IMG/VR virus record: IMGVR_UViG_3300018916_000004
Span: 1-38,588 of that record
Strand: one strand, 5' to 3'
DNA: 38,588 bases
Source: a virus
Shown here: positions 8,065 to 20,169 of the stretch, in pieces
Layout of the letters: each line of letters opens with the position of its first letter
Position numbering within the stretch: position 1 is the stretch's first letter
The notes under the pieces: model-generated
What the model saw: only the letters and a program-made list of their open reading frames with translations
Databases searched by the model: none
What the model was told of the DNA's origin: nothing
Program-made: the position numbers and the translations under genes

Positions 8065-8839
8065 CTGTTGCGCTCCTGCTGCTTGTGAAGCTTGTGGCGA
8101 ACCAGTGCCCGATGATTCTCCATTTCAATCATCGTGTTTATCTCAGCCCACTGACGGCCGAAGAAGAAGTCCCACCTGGTTTTGTCGCCGCTGGCCAGCG
8201 CATCCACGACGGCCAGCGTATCCCATTCTTTGCTGAAGGCGTCGACGCCGGCGGCACGCTCGTTGGCGCTGAGGGGAATGTCGTGTAGTCGGTCGTTGTG
8301 AGCGGACCGGATGCGGTCGTAATCGGCAAAAAAAAATCCGTGAGGGGCAGCGCCTCCCGCAGCGGCAGTGCCGCGCACAGGGGCTCCATCGCCGCTACCG
8401 CATCGCTGTCGTAGGTAGTGCCAGCGTAGGCGGGCTGCAACAGAATAGCCAGCACCCGCACCCGCAGCGCCGTTACATCCTCGCCGAGCTGCTGAATAGC
8501 CCCGCCGATATCGGCAGCCTGGCCGAACAGGATGTTTTCCAGCGTATCAGAAACGGGCACCTCTACCTCATCGAGCCACACCGAGGATGGGCGGGGCCAG
8601 TCGTCCCTCTCGGGCATGGGTTCGGCCAGGAAGGTGGCTTGCAGCAAAGCGGCCTGCAAGTCTTTGGGGGAGAGGGTGAGCAGTTCCGACACCTGACCAT
8701 GCAGTAAGATGGCTAGGCAATCCTGCAGCGCCGCGCTGTCGCCGAGGGCCGCTATCTGTTGGGCCTGGCCCAGGGTAACTTCGCTCCACGAGGTAGGCAG
8801 CGAGGCAGTACGATTGGGAAATGTGACGAGGTAAGGCAT
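8061..8839 (-). CDS. Tail assembly chaperone-like protein, -1 frameshift product (~259 aa)
   Basis: Reading starts at 8839 (MPYLVTFPNRTASLPTSWSEVTLGQ), 2 bases after the large terminase stop. In the starting frame it runs to 8138 (233 aa), but after residue ~168 the composition becomes shadow-like (Pro/Ser/Thr runs). At a run of nine T on the coding strand (8328-8336; GAT TTT TTT TTG) a -1 slip gives DFFFADYDRIRSAHNDRLHDI and a natural protein ending at 8061. The lambda G/GT chaperones use the same strategy. The 'PTSW-EVTLGQ' start recalls Bacteroidota tail chaperone-like proteins. A sequencing error in the homopolymer is the main alternative. Confidence 0.65.
8328..8336 (-). other. Candidate -1 ribosomal frameshift site (T9)
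   Basis: Nine consecutive T on the coding strand, read GAT TTT TTT TTG in the starting frame. Slipping back one base leaves cognate pairing at both tRNA sites. It is placed exactly where the upstream frame turns into non-coding-like sequence and the downstream frame becomes protein-like. Confidence 0.55.
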
Positions 8840-8841
8840 GT

Positions 8842-10017
8842 TCAGAAGGTTTGCCAGGTTGAGATAGGGGCAGGGGTCGGCCGCTGCAGGCGGTTGAGTG
8901 CCACGTAGCGAATGGCATCAATGGTATGGTTGAAGGCATCCACCGGCGTATTGGTGGCTAGGCCCGTTTGCCGGTCTACCTTCCACTTGTAGTTGCTGAG
9001 TTCTTTGCGCAGGTGGGTAGAGCGGCGCGTCACGTTGAGGTGGTAGCGCTTCAGCGCGTCCAAGCTGGCATTGATGCTATCCGGGCCCTTCATCGCGCCT
9101 TCAATGGATAGACCGAGCCGCCGCAACTCCTCGATACTCTTTGGCTCGGCGGAGTCGGCAATCACATCATAGCGCCGATGCGCGCCGATGGAAGCCAGTA
9201 CCGCATGAATGTCCGGGTTGGTGAGGCCAGTGCTGTAAAGCAGCTCATCGGCCCACAGTTGGCCCTCGGCTAAGTACAGATCAACGGCCGTTGTTGGGTC
9301 GTTCGTAAAGCCGAAGTCCATACCCGTGCCCAGGTACTTGGCTCCCTCGGGTATTTCTTCGCAGATGCTCCACTTGCGCAGCACCAGCCCCTCGATCTTG
9401 CCCGTCTTGCCACGAGCATACACACGCCACAGCTCGATATCCTCCTCCTTCAGCGCCTCGATCTTGGCGCGCGTCAGCTCATTGAGGAACGGATTATGCC
9501 GGTGGTCGGAAATAATGAGTTCTACATCGGGCTTGCCGTGCAGCTTCTCATGTACCCAGAACTCGGCGTTCGGATTGTAGTCGATGAAGGTGCGGATGCG
9601 TGTACGCAGCATCAATTCCTTGGCAATGGCATACGCAATGCCGTTCGCCTCATTGATGAAGAGATAGTCGCGCTTACCTGACTTGGCATCCTGGAAGTCG
9701 TCGTAACTCTTGAATTCCATAATCGAACCGTTATGGAATTCATAGATGCGCTCCGACTTGTTGTAGCTCTTGATTAGCGACTGGAGCACCACAGAGTTGC
9801 GCACGATGTCCTGTGCATCACGCAGAGCACCGGCTTTGAGGTTGGGAATATCCTGGCCCACGACGGTACACACCAGGTTCGTGCCAGCAGCCAGCAGCAC
9901 AAAGAGCACCTGCAGGATGCTGTAGGTTTTGCCTGAGCTGGTACCGCCTTGATCAACGACCACCGGCGCCGTCGCTTGGAGGTTGGCTTCGAAAACCGGA
10001 CTAGCCCTAAACATCAT
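8842..10017 (-). CDS. terL: Terminase large subunit, 391 aa
   Basis: Packaging motor ATPase and nuclease. Residues 24-31 (GGTSSGKT) are the Walker A motif; KRDYLFINEANG, at about residue 117, is the Walker B region with the catalytic acid. The C-terminal RNase H-like nuclease is suggested by acidic residues in GTGMDFGFTNDPTT, in VIADSAEPKS and in DAFNHTIDAIRY. Two adjacent ATGs (10017 and 10014) overlap the end of the small subunit by 8-11 bases; an upstream ATG at 10050 is less likely. The family resembles phage terminase large subunits of the Terminase_3/6 type. Confidence 0.9.
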   Translation of the reverse strand: MMFRASPVFEANLQATAPVVVDQGGTSSGKTYSILQVLFVLLAAGTNLVCTVVGQDIPNLKAGALRDAQDIVRNSVVLQSLIKSYNKSERIYEFHNGSIMEFKSYDDFQDAKSGKRDYLFINEANGIAYAIAKELMLRTRIRTFIDYNPNAEFWVHEKLHGKPDVELIISDHRHNPFLNELTRAKIEALKEEDIELWRVYARGKTGKIEGLVLRKWSICEEIPEGAKYLGTGMDFGFTNDPTTAVDLYLAEGQLWADELLYSTGLTNPDIHAVLASIGAHRRYDVIADSAEPKSIEELRRLGLSIEGAMKGPDSINASLDALKRYHLNVTRRSTHLRKELSNYKWKVDRQTGLATNTPVDAFNHTIDAIRYVALNRLQRPTPAPISTWQTF

Positions 10018-11267: not shown

Positions 11268-11729
11268 TCAGGTCGGTAATGCGGCACGCCAGGCAATGAA
11301 TTCCCGACGCACCTGGTCGATGGAGCGGCCCTCACAGGCAAAGCCACCGGCAGCTCGGACATTATCGAGGAAGGCTATCTGTTCCTCGCTGAGCTTATCC
11401 GAGCCGGTTTTCACTTCTACTGCCACAAAGCGGCCGGTGGCTTTATGATAGCCCAGCACGTCGGAGATGCCCGGCGTAACTGAGCCGGCCCGATAGCCGC
11501 CGAAGCTGGCATCGTACACAGCCCCATTGTTCTGCCGCCAGGCCGTGCAGCCTTCCAGGGTAAGCAGGGTAATGATGGACTTGGTGAGAGCATTGGTCGG
11601 GTTTGGGCGTTTTGCCCTTGGTTCCTTAGTTCTGGCAGCACTTTGGCCCGCCGCTGGTGTGCTGGTACCAGCGGCGGACTTCTTGCTGATGTAAGCCACA
11701 TACTCGGCGGCGGTCATCTGCTGGCTCAT
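11268..11729 (-). CDS. VRR-NUC family nuclease, 153 aa
   Basis: A PD-(D/E)XK-type nuclease of the VRR-NUC family, which includes small phage-encoded structure-specific (Holliday-junction resolvase-like) enzymes. Visible active-site residues: PGISD (Asp90), then AVEVKTG (Glu105, Lys107), followed by LSEEQIAFLDNVRAAGGFACEGRS, the usual 'Q-FL---+--GG-A-V' helix and strand. The start at 11729 (MSQQMTAAEY) overlaps the zinc-ribbon gene stop by 4 bases; the longer frame to 11888 is an overlap shadow. Probably resolves branched DNA during replication or before packaging. Confidence 0.85.
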   Translation of the reverse strand: MSQQMTAAEYVAYISKKSAAGTSTPAAGQSAARTKEPRAKRPNPTNALTKSIITLLTLEGCTAWRQNNGAVYDASFGGYRAGSVTPGISDVLGYHKATGRFVAVEVKTGSDKLSEEQIAFLDNVRAAGGFACEGRSIDQVRREFIAWRAALPT

Positions 11730-11977
11730 GGGTTCGGCTTCTGACCACCCGTGCAGGCCGGCCGCTCGGTGAGTATGTCGAGGCTGCCGGCGAGACGATA
11801 CACCACCTCGTAATTCAGGCGGTAGCATTTCTGGCAACCGCACTTGAGGCAGGTAGCTGTTTGACCACGTTGCGGGATGCGGCTCCATTTGTGCCGCTCA
11901 GCTGCTGGCACTACTCGTGGCCGCTTCACTTCCTGGAAATGCACTACACCAACGCCGGGAATATGCTGAAAACTCAT
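11726..11977 (-). CDS. Small zinc-ribbon-like protein, 83 aa
   Basis: An 83-residue protein with a Cys cluster TCLKCGCQKCYR at about residues 42-53 and one more Cys near the C-terminus (RPACTGGQ). This could bind zinc, but the spacing does not match a family I can name. It overlaps its neighbours by 4 bases on both sides (11974-11977 and 11726-11729), so it is firmly inside the early operon. Confidence 0.6.
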   Translation of the reverse strand: MSFQHIPGVGVVHFQEVKRPRVVPAAERHKWSRIPQRGQTATCLKCGCQKCYRLNYEVVYRLAGSLDILTERPACTGGQKPNP

Positions 11978-12459
11978 GCTCCCTCACCTCCTTCCTCGGC
12001 AAACGGCTGGCCGGTCAGATGCTCATGGAAGGCGGATAGGTCCGGTACCTCTTCCATGTCGGGACCGTCGTAGGTTCCGGCGAGCTTCGCCAACTGGATC
12101 AGCAGCCAGCTCAACCGCCCATTCTTGGTAGGATCCGGATGGATAGCCAGCGCCAGGATGCTGATGGTAGCCGCCTCGCTCAAGCCGATGATGTTGTTGA
12201 GCCAGTCCACCTCAGTCGCCGCGTTGCGTTCATAGTAGCGGGCATACAACTCATCAACGCGGTGGTGCAGGGCACCTACCAGCTTATCCTCTTTGCTTGG
12301 CCAGTGGCCCTCCTCGATGAGGCGGCGGGTATTGGATTCGAGGTGGGTGATGAGCACCTGGTTTAAGAGCAGCCGACGGCCCTGCGCTTCAGTGAGCAGG
12401 TTACCGCGGCCGGGCTTCGGCGTGGGAGCCGGGAAAGGGGAAGGGATGTAGCGGTTCAT
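11974..12459 (-). CDS. Hypothetical early protein, 161 aa
   Basis: A 161-residue protein with a Pro-rich N-terminus (MNRYIPSPFPAPTPKPGRGN), a long helical middle (residues 22-120, with HHRVDELYARYYERNAATEVDWLN) and an acidic tail (FAEEGGEGA). There are no catalytic motifs. It overlaps the ASCH gene and the zinc-ribbon gene by 4 bases each. I do not recognise it; a small helical accessory of replication is possible but unsupported. Confidence 0.6.
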   Translation of the reverse strand: MNRYIPSPFPAPTPKPGRGNLLTEAQGRRLLLNQVLITHLESNTRRLIEEGHWPSKEDKLVGALHHRVDELYARYYERNAATEVDWLNNIIGLSEAATISILALAIHPDPTKNGRLSWLLIQLAKLAGTYDGPDMEEVPDLSAFHEHLTGQPFAEEGGEGA

Positions 12460-13175
12460 AGCTGCTCACCTCCTTCCTGGATCCGGCGAAACTCAACCAC
12501 CCACACCCACGGGTTGGCTTGCCAAGCATTCACCCCGTTTATTTTATCCCACAGCATGTGGTACCACTCAATCGGATAGGTGAAGCCTTTGCGCATGGCA
12601 AAGTCATCCCAATCCTCATTCATCAGGTCGAAACTTCTTTTGTCCTCTACATCCAGCAGGTCGTAGAAATCCATGTAGCCACCATAGCCCTCTGCCTTAG
12701 CATCCGCCTCACTGATATCCTGCAACCGCTCCACCCGCACCGACACGACTTCCAACAGGATGCGGCTGTGCTTGCGTGGCATGAAAATGCTTGGCTGCCA
12801 CTTCTGGCCTAAATGCGGCAAAGGCTCATCTGCACGATAAATAACCTGGGCACCAAGATCCTCGCCAGCGTAGGCGCTAAATGTCTCTTTCACCCACAGC
12901 CGGTCACCGGGCTCGCCGTAAGGGGAGGCGCCATAGTAGTAGCAACCTTCACTACGCTCGTCCTGCCTCATGGCCTTTGGGAGCTTTTTGAAATCTTCCG
13001 GGCTTACTGGAAAACGGAAGTGCTTCCCATTGTCAGCACGATAAGGAATGCAGCCGCTAGAGCAGCGTGGCGTGACTTTTAGAGTCCGACGCGTTTGTGT
13101 CTTGGTGCCGGCCTGCAGAGCGTGCACCATGGCACCTGAAAAGAGTATGGGGCGTTCTTTGATTAGAGTATTCAT
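12456..13175 (-). CDS. ASCH/PUA-like domain phage protein, 239 aa
   Basis: The start at 13175 begins MNTLIKERPILFSGAMVHAL, followed by QAGTKTQTRRTLK. 'RPILFS--MV-A---G-KTQTRR' is the signature opening of a phage family with an ASCH (PUA-like) RNA/nucleotide-binding fold; the matching YGEPGDRLWVKETF and the late HSRILLEVVSVRVERLQDISEADAKAEG segments are also present. The substrate is unknown; ASCH proteins have been proposed to bind RNA or modified nucleotides. The C-terminal WYHMLWDKINGVNAWQANPWVWVVEF completes the family. The 44 residues upstream of this Met are an out-of-gene extension. Confidence 0.85.
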   Translation of the reverse strand: MNTLIKERPILFSGAMVHALQAGTKTQTRRTLKVTPRCSSGCIPYRADNGKHFRFPVSPEDFKKLPKAMRQDERSEGCYYYGASPYGEPGDRLWVKETFSAYAGEDLGAQVIYRADEPLPHLGQKWQPSIFMPRKHSRILLEVVSVRVERLQDISEADAKAEGYGGYMDFYDLLDVEDKRSFDLMNEDWDDFAMRKGFTYPIEWYHMLWDKINGVNAWQANPWVWVVEFRRIQEGGEQL

Positions 13176-13188
13176 TGTTGGGGTTGAG

Positions 13189-13491
13189 TTACAACTCAGC
13201 TTTGTTGAGGGGAGAAAGAGGGTTGATAGCCACGCACCGCACCGTGAAAGTGTGGTAGCCGTCCGCCTTGTCGGCGGCCGTGCGCGGCCCGTGGTCGATG
13301 ATGGCAATGGCGCCAGCGGCCAGCAGCGCCTCGCCGATTTGGCGGGCCATGTCGGGGTTTAGGGTTTCCTTCCGAAATGCGGGGCTTAGGTACTTGCGGT
13401 GGTAGGTGAGTTGCACTTCGACCGGCAGCAGGATGTGCTTCGGTGCCGGGTCCAAGTCGACGCGGGCGGGGGCCTGAACGAATCCTAGCAT
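13189..13491 (-). CDS. Hypothetical protein, 100 aa
   Basis: The start at 13491 (MLGFVQAPARVDLDPAPK) is preferred over 13611, which would overlap the upstream gene. The product looks like a small alpha/beta protein (HILLPVEVQLTYHRKYLSP, a helix MARQIGEALLAAGAIAII, and YHTFTVRCVAIN). Family unknown to me. It lies between the putative helicase-loader gene and the ASCH gene with gaps of 52 and 13 bases. Confidence 0.5.
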   Translation of the reverse strand: MLGFVQAPARVDLDPAPKHILLPVEVQLTYHRKYLSPAFRKETLNPDMARQIGEALLAAGAIAIIDHGPRTAADKADGYHTFTVRCVAINPLSPLNKAEL

Positions 13492-14419: not shown

Positions 14420-15362
14420 TGCTGGCGTCGTTATGCAGAAAGCGGTTGATGTAGGCTTGCCAGCCTTCCGGGGTGCGCTCGTCGAGGCTGGCCGTTTTCG
14501 TGGTGATTTGGGCCAGGTAGTAGGGCGCAAAGGCCGACGTGTAGCCGAGTCGGATCAGCAGCGCGGCAAAAGCCTCGAGTTCGGCGTAGGTGCTGCGGGC
14601 AAACGAGACGAAGTGCAGCGGGTCAGCGTGGCCGCCCCCCGCCCCCTGAGTGTGCGAAGCCGGGCGTTGGGCTTTTAGGCTGGCCCGAAGTTGGTCCCGC
14701 TGGTGGGTCATCTCTTCGAGCGAGGATTTTAGGATTGTAATTTCCTTTTGAGCCTCGGCTAGCTCAGCTCGTGCGCTTGCTAGCAAGCATTCATTGGTCG
14801 TATACTGGTCGTTATTGGTCGTTTCCTTATATACACTACCCTGTTTGTCTATAGACATGACCACGGATGTCTGTAGACACGACCCTGATTGTCTATAGAC
14901 AGCGCCCTGATTGTCTATAGACAGACCTTCTTTTGTAGGCAAAATGTCTATAGACATTTTGCACTCCTTTAAGATTTCGAGGTCGGCGTTGAGCTTTTCA
15001 ACGGCGGCAAATTGTTCGGCTTCGCTGCCCGTGTAGCAGAAGCGCAACGATAAGGCTGGCTGTATGCGGCGGAGCTTGGTAGCACCTGTAGACACAACTA
15101 AGTCCAGCCGTTGCAACTCAGACAGGGCGCGAGTAATGGTGCGCACGGTACCGCCGATCCTTTCGCTCAAGTAGTCATTGCTGCCCGTGAAAGCTTTCTG
15201 CTTTCCGTTTTCGGCCAGCTCGACAACCTCAATCAACACGGCGCGCAACGTTCGGTTGAGCGAGGTGAGGCGGTTGATATTTTGGCGAATGGGAAGCATT
15301 TTCAGTAGGGTTGGGGAGAAGCCGCCGGTTTCGGTGTGTAGGAAGCGGGCGGGAGTGCTCAT
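14274..15362 (-). CDS. Replication initiator-like protein with winged HTH, 362 aa
   Basis: Residues about 36-108 (NRTLRAVLIEVVELAENG..., TGSNDYLSERIGGTVRTITRALSELQRLDLV) form a winged helix-turn-helix like those of phage replication initiators and replisome organisers. Then comes a linker encoded by the iteron array, a coiled coil (LLASARAELAEAQKEITILKSSLEEM) and a C-terminal helical domain (ELEAFAALLIRLGYTSAFAPYYLAQITTK). The iteron-containing linker is the layout of lambda O, where the origin lies within the initiator gene. It overlaps the preceding gene by 4 bases. The DNA-binding role is well supported; the initiator role is inferred from the iterons. Confidence 0.7.
   Translation of the reverse strand: MSTPARFLHTETGGFSPTLLKMLPIRQNINRLTSLNRTLRAVLIEVVELAENGKQKAFTGSNDYLSERIGGTVRTITRALSELQRLDLVVSTGATKLRRIQPALSLRFCYTGSEAEQFAAVEKLNADLEILKECKMSIDILPTKEGLSIDNQGAVYRQSGSCLQTSVVMSIDKQGSVYKETTNNDQYTTNECLLASARAELAEAQKEITILKSSLEEMTHQRDQLRASLKAQRPASHTQGAGGGHADPLHFVSFARSTYAELEAFAALLIRLGYTSAFAPYYLAQITTKTASLDERTPEGWQAYINRFLHNDASNGRLQISDPNQQPTHGNAAITSRPTPGQKPTGNAGQLARSLAERRERN
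14795..14962. other. Candidate replication origin: five 22-bp-phased palindromic iterons plus TGGTCGT repeats
   Basis: TGTCTATAGACA occurs at 14846-14857, 14890-14901, 14912-14923 and 14945-14956, with a one-base variant (TGTCTGTAGACA) at 14868-14879. Start-to-start distances are 22, 22, 22 and 33 bp, i.e. whole helical turns of 11 bp. The last copy sits at the centre of a perfect 24-bp palindrome (14939-14962). Beside the array TGGTCGT occurs three times (14795, 14806, 14816) with 10-11 bp spacing, next to an AT-rich stretch (TTCCTTATATACA, 14823-14835) that could melt. The whole lies inside the initiator gene. Confidence 0.75.
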
Positions 15363-15634
15363 GGTCGGTCGAGGTGTTGGGGCGGTAGCTTGCGGGCTTC
15401 ATCAATGCCGAAGAGGCTGGCTTGTGTGGTGGGCCGTAGGGCCGGATAGAGGGTGTAGAGGTCCTCTATCGTTTCCTCCACCACGGCAATCCGGTGGGCA
15501 GCATCTTCGGCCGTAATAGCCGGCTTGCGCTTGTTGCGGTGGTTGTCTATCCAGTTGGGGTAGACTCGCTTGCGCATGGCTAGCTCCCGGAGCAGCTCCG
15601 CTACCCGCTGGCCAGGGGTGGTTTTCGTGCTCAT
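15359..15634 (-). CDS. Small conserved phage protein, 91 aa
   Basis: A 91-residue protein (MSTKTTPGQRVAELLRELAMRKRVYPNWIDN...) whose pattern 'ELAMR+-VYP-W', followed by a helix with AEDAAHRIAVVEETIEDL, matches a small helical protein common in phage early regions; its function is unknown. It overlaps the DndC-like gene and the initiator gene by 4 bases each, so it is co-translated with both. Confidence 0.7.
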   Translation of the reverse strand: MSTKTTPGQRVAELLRELAMRKRVYPNWIDNHRNKRKPAITAEDAAHRIAVVEETIEDLYTLYPALRPTTQASLFGIDEARKLPPQHLDRP

Positions 15635-16848
15635 GATTTCATGAAGTCTAGTAGGGGCATTGTGGAGCCATCGGCGTACACCACATCATGCGCCACGTCG
15701 GCAGTAGGCTCGTTGCCGGTCCATTTATCCGGCCACGTGTTGGCCGCTATCAGCTCGTGAATGCGGGCTACTTCCTCACTATTGAGGATATCTACCCGCG
15801 GCCGGCCCTGCTCATCAGCAGCAGCATTTACTTCTGCCTGGATAGCGAGCACCGTTGCTAGTCCTGCTAGCCGGGCTTCCATCGTAAGCGGTCCGAGGCG
15901 CTGCTGCTTGCGGGCCAGCTTGCCATCAGCATTGCGTTCACCAGCTGGTTGCCGTTTCCGGCCAGCCAAGTTGTTGCGCAGGTGTTCGAACATGGGCCGC
16001 AACCGAAGGAGCGGGCGGAGGTAGGACCAATTGGGGCGAGCTACCAGATTTTCCAGGGCCACATCCTTACTGGCCACCGGGCAACCCATGCAGCCCGTGC
16101 GGGCATTCTTCTCTTCCGCCTCCTCTCCGCCGTAAGCTTCCGCTACCATCTTCGTACTCCAGTCGCCAAACTCGGCACGTGGGGCCCAATTGCGCAGCCA
16201 CTCCCACACGTGGCACACGCGCCAGTGCAGCAACGGGGCCAGCGTATCACACAGAGCAGCGGGTAGCGTTTCCTGGTACCAGCCTTGACCACACTCGGCA
16301 CCGTCTTTACCACAGCTCATCACGATGCGCTGATCCCGAACGGCGGACTCGCCTTGCCGAACCCCGGTAACCATCAGCACCTTTTCGCCCTTCTCCCCAA
16401 CTAGCCGGCGTAGCTCAGCCTCCATTGGTTCGATTTTAATTAAGCCGGTGCACCAGCGGAAGCCAGCACCAGAAGGAGGTACACCCCGGCCGAACATGTA
16501 GACGAAAAACCGCTCGTCTAGTGGGCTCATCACGACGCGCACATCAATACCACGGGCGCGCAGGTCGTCCATAATATCATACGCGGCTGCCATTAGCGGT
16601 ACCAGCTCCAGCCGCGTATCGGCAAAAAGCACGGTCAGGCTTTCGGGCCGCTGCACTTTGCCGGACTCAATTAGCCAGACAAGTAGCGTAAGCGTTGCCG
16701 TGCTATCCTTGCCACCGCTCCAGGCTACAGCCCAATGCTTGTGCGTTGGGCCGTAGGCGTTCAGGCTACGGGCGGTTAGCTCGATGCTGTCATTCATTTG
16801 CAGCCGGCGAGTACCTTCGAAGAGGTTGGTCTGAATGAGCTTGCTCAT
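15631..16848 (-). CDS. DndC / PAPS-reductase-like PP-loop ATPase, 405 aa
   Basis: Residues 44-50 are the PP-loop SGGKDST, which binds ATP and activates substrates by adenylation in the adenine nucleotide alpha-hydrolase superfamily. TGVRQGES (161-168) and RWCTGLIKIEP (131-141) match the GVR-xES and C-T-LKI blocks typical of DndC, the sulfur-activating subunit of DNA phosphorothioation. RTGCMGCP (250-257) gives a CxxC pair that with Cys133 could hold an iron-sulfur cluster. No DndB, DndD or DndE is present. It overlaps the helicase-methyltransferase by 4 bases, so the two are probably made together. A DNA-modification role is inferred. Confidence 0.85.
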   Translation of the reverse strand: MSKLIQTNLFEGTRRLQMNDSIELTARSLNAYGPTHKHWAVAWSGGKDSTATLTLLVWLIESGKVQRPESLTVLFADTRLELVPLMAAAYDIMDDLRARGIDVRVVMSPLDERFFVYMFGRGVPPSGAGFRWCTGLIKIEPMEAELRRLVGEKGEKVLMVTGVRQGESAVRDQRIVMSCGKDGAECGQGWYQETLPAALCDTLAPLLHWRVCHVWEWLRNWAPRAEFGDWSTKMVAEAYGGEEAEEKNARTGCMGCPVASKDVALENLVARPNWSYLRPLLRLRPMFEHLRNNLAGRKRQPAGERNADGKLARKQQRLGPLTMEARLAGLATVLAIQAEVNAAADEQGRPRVDILNSEEVARIHELIAANTWPDKWTGNEPTADVAHDVVYADGSTMPLLDFMKS

Positions 16849-19388
16849 GCTGCTACCTCCTTTTCCTGCTCGAGTAAATCGAACAACGTGGGCACCGTCA
16901 CCTTGTATTCAGCTTCGCGGCAGTAGGCAACACCCGACTTCCAATAGTCTGCGTTCAGCTCCACCCCGTAGCCGCGGCGGCCTAGTGCCACCGCCCGATA
17001 AGGCACCGTCATCAGGCCCCCAAACGGATCGAGTACCACTTCGCCCGGATTGCTCCAGCGCTCAATTACGCGGTCCACGATATCGAACGGCAGCGGGCAA
17101 ATGTGATTCTGCACATTGCGTTTGGCTTGCTCACCGTTGAGTGTGCGCATATACACCACATCCGTCCACACATCCTCGTGCGGTGACTGTGGCGCCAGCA
17201 TCATAAAAGAGGAGGGCAGGCGCTTGGCGTGCTCGAGTCCTTCCCCAATGCGCACGTGCTCGGAGTAATTGTAGGGCGCAAACAGGTTGCGCGCCTTCCA
17301 CCACTGGCCAATGCGGTCCATGCTGCGGCTCTGCAACTCGGTTGGCGTCAGCAGCCGGTCCCCACTGGAGCGCCACAGCGCGTGAGCATCCACCTGCCAG
17401 CGAGCGAGCGAGTACTGCGCCTTGTCCTTTACAACCGGCGTATCCGCGTAGCCATTCTCCTGCGAGCTAGGCAGCTTGCGGAACAACAAGATGTATTCGG
17501 GCAAGCCTACGCCCATTTTGCTACCATCCTTACACATCTCCGTGTAGCCGAGGCGGTACGTCTGGTTGTTTTCACGAACCACATCCGTTAGCACCGTAAT
17601 GCGGCCCATCAGGCGGAAGCCATGCTTGCGGAAGGCGGCGCTGGTTTGATCACTGAACGGGTCGAGGGCTATAAAGCCATCGCCGGTAACGGATCCGTAG
17701 CGTACCCGGTCCTTTACATGGATAGCAGCAATGCGGCCCGGCTTGAGCACACGCAACAGCTCCGGTACCAAGAAGTCCATTTGCTGGAAAAACTTCTCGT
17801 TATCCTCGTTGTGGCCGAAGTCGTTGTAGCTGGCGCTGTACTCGTAGTGGTTGCCGAAGGGAATGCTCGTGTGAATCAGGTCCACCGAGTTGTCGGCTAG
17901 GTGCGACATCTCGGCTACGCAGTCGTTGTGCACGGCCGTGAAGAGATTGCCCCGCACCTCTTTCCGTTCCACGCCCATCGTGCGGGTAAGCCGGTCTTTG
18001 GCGGCGGCGTGGGAGAGGCCGTACGTTTTGATGATGGACCGCATGTTTTCCATCAGTTCCTCATGACGCTGCCACTTGGCCTCCAATTCCTTGCGGATCG
18101 GTTCTTCGGCCGGCGTATAGAGGATATGCACCTGCACGGGGTGCTGCTGCTGAAAGCGGTGCGTGCGGTGCACGGCCTGAATGAAGTCCTCGAAACGGTA
18201 GTCGATACCGAGGAAAAGATTCAGGTGGCAGTGCCGCTGGAAGTTGCAGCCGCTACCTGCTATCTCCGGCTTGGTAGCCAGGTATTGGTATTCACCGCGA
18301 CTGAAACCTAGTATCAGATCCTCCCGATCGTCTAGGTCCTGCGAGCCATACACCGAGTTAAAGCCGCCTGGAGCTTCGTTGAAAGCAGCTTCCAGCGCGC
18401 GCCGCTCATCCTCCAAGTGATGCCAGATGATCCAGTGATCATGGTACCCCTCAGGCGTTAGAACAAGCTGCAGGGCCTTATCTACCCGAGCCGAGATGCT
18501 GCGTTTCTTCTCCCGTGCCGCTTCTGGCAGGTTGCCACCGGCGACGTGGAATACCTCATGCTGGCCTGAACGACGGTCTACCCGTACGGCCGTCTCGGTA
18601 TCGGCAACAAGGTGCCAGTTTACTTGGAGCGCTGGCAGGTCGTAGCCCTCATCTGAATACCCAAGGTCGGAGGGGCGCGTCAGGAACAGCGCCCACGAGC
18701 TAACCCACAACCAATAATCCGCCTCGTGTTGCGGATGCAGCGTTAGGTTGCCCGCCTTCTGCGAGTCCCGCCGAAACCAACGGGTAAGCGCCTGGCCAGC
18801 ATCCATCACACCGAGGAAGGCGGCGTAGTGATTGAGTTCGGTATAGCGGTTGGGGGAAGGCGTTGCCGTGCACACATACCGGAAGGGCACTTTAGCCAGC
18901 AACCGCGCAAACTGCTGGTGTGTCTCGCTGCCTACGCTCCGCAGGACGGATCCTTCGTCGAGCGTGACAGCGGCCAGGCCTGCGAGGAACGCCTCGCTAA
19001 AGTGACCATCTCGCACCCGCTCGTAATTGGTGATGAGGAAGGGCGTACCTGCTGCGGTGGCTTCGGCATCGTTGCGTACGTACTGAATGCGTACGCCTAG
19101 CCGGGGGCCATCTTCTTCGGTGAACTGGTGCTTTACGCCAAGCGGGCATACGATGAGCACCATGCCGCCTAGGAACTCCTGAATGAGGCGCAGCAACTCG
19201 ATCTGGGTATGTGTCTTGCCGAGGCCGAAGCTGGAGCCAATGAGGCCGCGGCCTTTGCGCAGGGCCCAAACAATAGTATCGACCTGGTGCGGCAGGCTGG
19301 AAGGGTGAATGTGGGCAGGGTTTACCTCGAAGCCACAGTCTTCTGCCAACTTGATTTTGGAGCCAAGGAAGTCCGTATAGTTATTCAC
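16845..19388 (-). CDS. SF2 helicase - beta-class DNA methyltransferase fusion, 847 aa
   Basis: The N-terminal half is an SF2/SNF2-like motor: Walker A GSSFGLGKTHT (51-61), an atypical motif II LDEGS (143-147 in place of DEAH), motif III CTATPSP (173-179) and motif VI QAVHRTHRF (404-412). The C-terminal half is an amino-methyltransferase in the beta order: motif IV TSIPF (507-511) before motif I DPFGG (787-791), with YGVELN at 807-812. The Ile replaces the first Pro of the usual (D/S)PP(Y/F). Such fusions occur in phages and may translocate along and methylate phage DNA. It overlaps the upstream gene by 8 bases and the DndC-like gene by 4. Confidence 0.88.
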   Translation of the reverse strand: MNNYTDFLGSKIKLAEDCGFEVNPAHIHPSSLPHQVDTIVWALRKGRGLIGSSFGLGKTHTQIELLRLIQEFLGGMVLIVCPLGVKHQFTEEDGPRLGVRIQYVRNDAEATAAGTPFLITNYERVRDGHFSEAFLAGLAAVTLDEGSVLRSVGSETHQQFARLLAKVPFRYVCTATPSPNRYTELNHYAAFLGVMDAGQALTRWFRRDSQKAGNLTLHPQHEADYWLWVSSWALFLTRPSDLGYSDEGYDLPALQVNWHLVADTETAVRVDRRSGQHEVFHVAGGNLPEAAREKKRSISARVDKALQLVLTPEGYHDHWIIWHHLEDERRALEAAFNEAPGGFNSVYGSQDLDDREDLILGFSRGEYQYLATKPEIAGSGCNFQRHCHLNLFLGIDYRFEDFIQAVHRTHRFQQQHPVQVHILYTPAEEPIRKELEAKWQRHEELMENMRSIIKTYGLSHAAAKDRLTRTMGVERKEVRGNLFTAVHNDCVAEMSHLADNSVDLIHTSIPFGNHYEYSASYNDFGHNEDNEKFFQQMDFLVPELLRVLKPGRIAAIHVKDRVRYGSVTGDGFIALDPFSDQTSAAFRKHGFRLMGRITVLTDVVRENNQTYRLGYTEMCKDGSKMGVGLPEYILLFRKLPSSQENGYADTPVVKDKAQYSLARWQVDAHALWRSSGDRLLTPTELQSRSMDRIGQWWKARNLFAPYNYSEHVRIGEGLEHAKRLPSSFMMLAPQSPHEDVWTDVVYMRTLNGEQAKRNVQNHICPLPFDIVDRVIERWSNPGEVVLDPFGGLMTVPYRAVALGRRGYGVELNADYWKSGVAYCREAEYKVTVPTLFDLLEQEKEVAA

Positions 19389-20139
19389 GGTCTAGCTCCT
19401 TTCCACCAAATGTGCGCTTGTGCTGCTGGCCATCCACCGAAGCGGACACCGTTACGGTCATGTTGCCTTTGGCCGCAACATCATCCATAAAGTGCACGAA
19501 CTTATCTACCTCCTTCGCCAGCGAGCGAGTAGCAGCACTACCCACCTCTTCGAACATATCAAGCTGCCGGCCCTCGTCCGAGTACTTGCCGTCTAGATAG
19601 AGGCGTACTTCCTCAATAGCCCTGGCCAGGTCGTTGTCGAGCGAGTACAGATACAAGTACTCATCTCCGGTGGGCGTCTCTGGTTCCAGCACCTCAAAGG
19701 CAGATACCAGGTTGAGCACCTTCTTCGAGCGGAGTTTCTTTTGCCCTACCAACACGACCCCGCCACTGGTGAGCGTGAAGCCCGTGCAGCGGTAGTTGAG
19801 AAACGCATCGTTAGTATATATCTCTTCACTAGCAAAGGCGTCCGTTAGCCGGTAATAGTCGAGGTATTCATCCTCGCACTGAATACCGTCTACTACTTCG
19901 GTCATCAGGCACAGGTGCGAAGTGAGCCGGCTGAAGGCCTGAACTAGATCCTGGTGCGCGGGCTGGTGCACCTTGCGCGTAATCTCGGAGCTGACGCCCC
20001 GCTCACGTAGGGTATATTCAGCATAGAGGTTGTAGAACTTATCGAGCTTAACCTTGGTCAGCTCTATTTCACGCTCTGGAAGGACTGACAAGGCAGCTTC
20101 AGAGTCGTTGAGGTTGTCTGTATTTGTAGGGGCTTGCAT
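19381..20139 (-). CDS. Hypothetical early protein, 252 aa
   Basis: The start at 20139 (MQAPTNTDNLNDSEAAL) is preferred; an ATG at 20163 adds 8 residues and runs into an upstream hairpin. The first half is helical and acidic (VKLDKFYNLYAEYTLRERGV...), followed by a beta-rich middle (YRCTGFTLTSGGVVLVGQKKL) and a C-terminal segment (TRSLAKEVDKFVHFMDDV, then MTVTVSASVDGQQHKRTFGG). The family is not recognised. It is flanked by the putative recombination protein and the helicase-methyltransferase, overlapping the latter by 8 bases, so a role in DNA metabolism or modification is plausible. Confidence 0.6.
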   Translation of the reverse strand: MQAPTNTDNLNDSEAALSVLPEREIELTKVKLDKFYNLYAEYTLRERGVSSEITRKVHQPAHQDLVQAFSRLTSHLCLMTEVVDGIQCEDEYLDYYRLTDAFASEEIYTNDAFLNYRCTGFTLTSGGVVLVGQKKLRSKKVLNLVSAFEVLEPETPTGDEYLYLYSLDNDLARAIEEVRLYLDGKYSDEGRQLDMFEEVGSAATRSLAKEVDKFVHFMDDVAAKGNMTVTVSASVDGQQHKRTFGGKELDRE

Positions 20140-20169
20140 GGGTGCGATGCTTGAGAATGGCACGAAAGA

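Follow-up and report, generated by a model that had tools for sequence, protein, structure and literature searches.

The described systems closest to the locus studied here are those of DndC, SspD and BrxP of type 4 BREX, which share with it a PP-loop 3′-phosphoadenosine-5′-phosphosulfate (PAPS)-reductase fold. Residue C280 of DndC has been reported to be essential for the [4Fe-4S] cluster (PMC11662687). SNF2-methylase dyads have been described as antirestriction devices (PMC5512222). In the literature searched, no description of a DndC-like phage protein paired with methyltransferases was found; one paper on prophages notes stray DndC and SspD genes in those of Sinorhizobium and leaves their meaning open. 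Here we analysed the IMG/VR virus record IMGVR_UViG_3300018916_000004 (38,588 nucleotides, hereafter the window), in which the gene of a DndC-like PP-loop enzyme overlaps that of a helicase-methyltransferase. This 38.6-kb record contains terminase, portal, head protease, tape measure, S24-type repressor and integrase genes, which mark the window as a prophage or a tailed temperate phage. The closest homologues of the PP-loop protein come from genomes of Hymenobacter, so that the host may be of the Hymenobacter type. The enzyme is linked to methyltransferases in general, through many independent pairings. This reverse association, from the enzyme to its methyltransferases, is the new result; the helicase-methyltransferase belongs to an already known phage family.

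The two genes are as follows.

15631-16848, minus strand: PP-loop PAPS-reductase-like protein of 405 amino acids (PF01507, phrog_12882).
16845-19388, minus strand: SNF2-type helicase fused to an N4/N6 amino-methyltransferase, 847 amino acids (SNF2-rel_dom and N6_N4_Mtase (PF01555), phrog_16).

The two open reading frames (ORFs) share 4 bp (ATGA), and an AGGAGG ribosome-binding site precedes the PP-loop start. The coordinates and motifs thus agree with the original prediction, which named this overlap and the motifs of the PP-loop ORF. Strong PHROG matches (E 5e-180 to phrog_12882 and E 2e-106 to phrog_16), together with conserved homologues in many phages, argue that both ORFs are real genes.

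Loci containing the enzyme were gathered from viral contigs (80) and genomes (80), being the best 80 matches per scan, and from annotated phages. Methyltransferases were detected by homology, by which some types are missed (MT-A70 surfaced on inspection alone), and viral contigs may be incomplete. A whole-record Pfam search of 50 distinct viral records detected a PF00145 or PF01555 methyltransferase in 34. In 25 of these 34 it was located within 2 kb of the enzyme, on the same strand every time, while random placement gave a mean of 4.3 and a maximum of 12 (5000 trials). Among 108 non-redundant loci from several phyla, a methyltransferase was nearby in 72. In 39 of the 108 the adjacent gene on the same strand, at most 150 bp away, encoded a DNA methyltransferase (null mean 4.5, maximum 11), although this null draws on all same-strand ORFs, some of them spurious, and is imperfect. 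Real gene families from the same loci were also used as controls. They were methyltransferase-adjacent in 21/118 cases, or in 11/80 (about 14%) when one cluster, an out-of-frame shadow of the PP-loop enzyme, was dropped, whereas the enzyme was methyltransferase-adjacent in 35/64 (55%).

The partners comprise two C5 subfamilies, the helicase-N4/N6 fusion, D12-like and N6 types and MT-A70. C5 methyltransferases partner the enzyme at least as often as the helicase-methyltransferase does, and most adjacent partners belong to families without a helicase domain. The same strand and overlaps of 1-4 bp recur with unrelated methyltransferase families: the enzyme gene overlaps a C5 methyltransferase by 4 bp in Pseudomonas phage Dobby and Rhizobium phage RR1-A, and another DNA methylase by 4 bp in Microcystis phage Mae-JY29. 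None of 169 loci had the enzyme gene fused to that of a methyltransferase. The starred branches of the tree force helicase-methyltransferase adjacency to have been gained or lost at least 8 separate times and C5 adjacency at least 14 times, about as many as with shuffled labels. The two C5 families pairing with the enzyme (loci L004 and L009; alignments A5 and A6) have an unusual catalytic motif IV, SPDCKH and SSPCKG, not PPCQ.

The dependence is one-sided, as methyltransferases rarely have the PP-loop enzyme. It was carried at 3/80 close helicase-methyltransferase loci, and at 4/80 and 2/80 loci of C5 methyltransferases. The original prediction had linked the locus to DNA modification through these two genes in particular. 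The link holds as a statistical association with methyltransferases, but the frequent separation of the two genes in relatives, the refuting condition set by that prediction itself, refutes a specific pair.

The PP-loop protein scored 45.8 bits against PF01507 (gathering cut-off 22.5). It contains SGGKDS at residues 44-49, GVRQGES at 162-168, C253-x-x-C256 and a loop with ECGQG; S44, G46, K47, D48 and S49 of the PP-loop are invariant among homologues. Six cysteines (C133, C179, C186, C212, C253 and C256) are each kept in at least 107 of 108 non-redundant homologues. The PP-loop is likewise conserved in nearly all of these 108, which indicates that the enzyme is kept active. Relatives of it were found in only 17 phage records. 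The AlphaFold2 model (predicted local distance difference test score 86.5) matches PP-loop enzymes of adenylation and sulfur transfer: GMP synthetase, CysD and CysH, and also NcsA and TtuA, which are [4Fe-4S] thiolases. The fold search retrieved the general PP-loop class alone and indicated no specific substrate, and a search of solved structures by sequence gave no relative below E 0.7. C179 and C186 lie in the strongly conserved loop bearing ECGQG, which has low confidence in the model.

DndC was the highest-scoring curated family (TIGR03183, 113.5 bits against a cut-off of 290.4), and PADLOC DndC models also match. The phage enzyme has the same PAPS-reductase fold and the same SGGKDS, RWCT and GC-x-x-C motifs, and Salmonella DndC is 27% identical to it over about 355 residues. 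Salmonella DndC has cysteines C146, C262, C273, C280 and C283. In the pairwise alignment, C133 corresponds to C146 and C253/C256 to C280/C283, while equivalents of C262 and C273 are absent from the phage family, which has instead the invariant C179, C186 and C212 and the ECGQG loop. With a score under the cut-off and two of the four clustered cysteines absent, the protein was rejected as DndC. It is best placed within the PP-loop ATP-pyrophosphatase superfamily as a member specific to phages, with DndC as its nearest relative. We assume that C262, C273, C280 and C283 of DndC are all cluster ligands. The six invariant cysteines of the phage enzyme probably bind an iron-sulfur (Fe-S) cluster and carry sulfur; this cluster would have an altered ligand set, and one cysteine may be a mobile catalytic residue.

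Profile searches gave no match to DndB or DndD in the window, and over 35 records the DndD search yielded sub-threshold ATPase matches alone. The DndE profile also had no match in the window, but it was silent in every control genome as well. The absence of all three genes had been claimed before; for DndE it is not shown. Since the DndD-type ATPase is missing and DndE is unmatched in a search that was not sensitive, classical phosphorothioation is not established. The enzyme stands alone beside methyltransferases with no DndD partner found, which, with its score and cysteines, supports the view that it is DndC-like but not part of a standard phosphorothioation system.

Two further groups of PAPS-reductase relatives can be compared. 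The conjugative plasmids IncC and IncHI2 are mobile elements that likewise encode a protein of the PAPS-reductase family, with a DNA methyltransferase in the same region. However, these proteins are of about 800 amino acids, belong to another subfamily, keep the DndC-type four-cysteine cluster and are not adjacent to the methyltransferase. At two such plasmid loci (L251:2366-8271 and L252:1384-8202) the methyltransferase lies about 2-3 kb from the 800-residue protein. The PAPS reductase of Thermus phage Tsatsa (PMC11437467) has the six-cysteine signature in common and is 34-36% identical, but it has 319 amino acids and no methyltransferase beside its gene.

The helicase and methyltransferase motifs of the 847-residue protein are intact (Walker A GSSFGLGKT, LDEGS, motif IV TSIPF and motif I DPFGG). 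Relatives were found in 309 phage records, mostly of Mycobacterium, Flavobacterium and Arthrobacter phages, and the best of them show about 50% identity across 99% of the protein. The phrog_16 proteins of Mycobacterium and Arthrobacter phages, about 50% identical over the full length, are annotated as DNA helicase/methylase. DarB differs in having the methylase ahead of the helicase in a huge virion protein, whereas the window protein is helicase-first. The proposal that the helicase provides movement along DNA for sulfur addition found no support, as most partners have no helicase domain.

Two genes flank the pair in the window, and both were compared with the viral locus L413 of a sister phage.

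19381-20163, minus strand: upstream flank, gene of 260 amino acids from a GTG start (252 from an inner ATG).
15359-15634, minus strand: downstream flank, gene of 91 amino acids, with a 4-bp overlap.

The helicase-methyltransferase ORF overlaps the upstream gene by 8 bp (19381-19388). In L413, homologues of the 260- and 91-residue genes overlap each other directly by 8 bp, which is the geometry of the window's 260-residue/helicase junction, and the two-gene block is absent. The whole 50-kb L413 record gave no PF01507, PF01555 or PF00145 match. As both genes are missing between the same flanking genes, the PP-loop enzyme and the helicase-methyltransferase were gained or lost in this phage lineage as one unit, with the ends given in the original prediction, and to this extent the earlier view of them as a unit was right. 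The empty site comes from a single comparison, at 75-79% identity, which does not fix the direction of gain or loss. The upstream gene, which had been put forward as a third member, was rejected as such; its L413 homologue abuts the 91-residue gene without the cassette, and it is a flank.

Other genes near the enzyme were also recorded. Those in the window are as follows.

12456-13307, minus strand: phrog_874 protein of 283 amino acids, ASCH-like by eye, without a Pfam match.
11268-11888, minus strand: VRR-NUC nuclease, lying about 3.7 kb downstream of the PP-loop gene and read in the same operon direction.

Small phage proteins of phrog_874 and phrog_3193, ASCH-like by eye and without a Pfam match, are direct neighbours of the enzyme in 9/108 loci (null 1.5). 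Besides the one in the window, examples are L068:11270-11959, L149:2414-2980 and L164:11203-11577. These proteins might read modified nucleic acid, and their link to the enzyme is unproven. In L078 a reverse transcriptase gene (RVT_1, 8627-9964), possibly from a diversity-generating retroelement, lies a short way upstream of the enzyme; a clustered relative of it lies about 1.8 kb upstream of the enzyme in L042 (6357-8168). In L040 a queuine tRNA-ribosyltransferase-like gene (11467-12195; phrog_887, DpdA-like) is found about 250 bp downstream of the enzyme and is possibly another DNA-modification gene in the island.

The enzyme probably modifies DNA or otherwise counters restriction. We tentatively propose that it is an optional PP-loop enzyme, probably of the Fe-S type, added to swappable phage methyltransferase islands, where paired modification with sulfur insertion would serve against restriction. 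A phage would pair the enzyme with whichever methyltransferase is present, here the helicase-methyltransferase, as a translationally coupled cassette. The methyltransferase would mark the phage DNA at its own sites. A host cysteine desulfurase would feed sulfur to the PP-loop enzyme, which with ATP would activate a second DNA site, in the backbone or a base, and insert sulfur there; such an insertion is plausible. The two marks together could widen the protection against host restriction. The analysis shows the fold, the conserved residues, the association with methyltransferases, the exchange of partners and the behaviour as a cassette, whereas an Fe-S cluster, a DNA substrate, sulfur as the added atom and a role against restriction are inferred. 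That the pairing is convergent with chemically different methyltransferases speaks against an enzyme that simply processes one methylated base further; the enzyme would rather work in parallel to whatever methyltransferase is present, and its substrate is likely to be DNA.

Several points weigh against this proposal. Neither a DndD/SspC ATPase nor a DndE/SspB DNA-binding gene was found, and known phosphorothioation requires them. The cassette has no desulfurase. We infer DNA as the substrate from the neighbouring genes alone. No methyltransferase is within reach in 36/108 loci, and the whole records of Hymenobacter loci L012 and L013, in which the enzyme is about 75% identical, gave no PF00145 or PF01555 match. 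A new kind of phage DNA modification, in which a DndC-like Fe-S PP-loop enzyme standing alone would place sulfur or a different group on phage DNA while interchangeable methyltransferases provide the targeting in place of DndD/DndE or SspB/SspC, is rather unlikely.

It is somewhat unlikely that the enzyme is a passenger of an anti-restriction island, protecting the phage without placing sulfur in DNA (its target could, for example, be host tRNA, a signal molecule or a defence protein) and lying near methyltransferases because counter-defence genes gather. The free switching of partner type on the tree, the low frequency of the enzyme at methyltransferase loci and the DpdA-like, DUF5131 and ASCH-like accessory genes also nearby are in keeping with this, but methyltransferase adjacency is well over that of other recurrent families at the same loci. 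The same control families, with about 14% adjacency against 55% for the enzyme, speak against a mere habit of phage gene order, in which an early-region cargo slot would bring the genes together with no functional link, as do the shared strand and short overlaps recurring across unrelated methyltransferase families. Such a habit is distinctly unlikely, even though the type and presence of partners are scattered on the tree and the within-locus ORF null is imperfect.

Alternatively, the methyltransferase could add a handle to a base, which the PP-loop enzyme would adenylate and extend, as do CmoX/CmoY of Synechococcus phage S-B43. That 5-carboxymethylcytosine system (PMC12783734) is a phage precedent in which a DNA methyltransferase homologue likewise lies beside an ATP-dependent adenylating ligase, and partner methyltransferases of the enzyme have an unusual motif IV (TSIPF, SPDCKH or SSPCKG). 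CmoY, however, is an asparagine-synthetase homologue, and the partners here include N4/N6 methyltransferases. CmoA, the synthase of carboxy-S-adenosylmethionine, was found in 0/35 records, although a host CmoA could substitute. The partner products also differ chemically (C5, exocyclic N), so that one enzyme for all is unlikely, and we consider this hypermodification quite improbable. An auxiliary metabolic gene, a PAPS reductase boosting host sulfur assimilation, is very improbable. The PHROG and GenBank annotations say PAPS reductase, and the fold matches CysH. The catalytic cysteine of CysH lies C-terminal, but the final cysteine of the phage protein is C256 of 405, so this residue is absent. 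The CysH model gave 16.9 bits (cut-off 154) against 113.5 for DndC, and the protein was rejected as the assimilatory enzyme. The neighbours are DNA methyltransferases, not sulfur genes, and the convergent pairing with chemically different methyltransferases further disfavours sulfate assimilation.

Phage PAPS-reductase genes are usually classed as sulfur metabolism. The recurrent, convergent pairing with unrelated DNA methyltransferases and the loss of CysH and DndC hallmarks indicate that at least the family studied here has its place in DNA modification or counter-defence. A vague annotation is thereby turned into a testable prediction, that the DNA of phages such as Dobby, phiC725A or RR1-A would contain a sulfur-dependent or other new mark.

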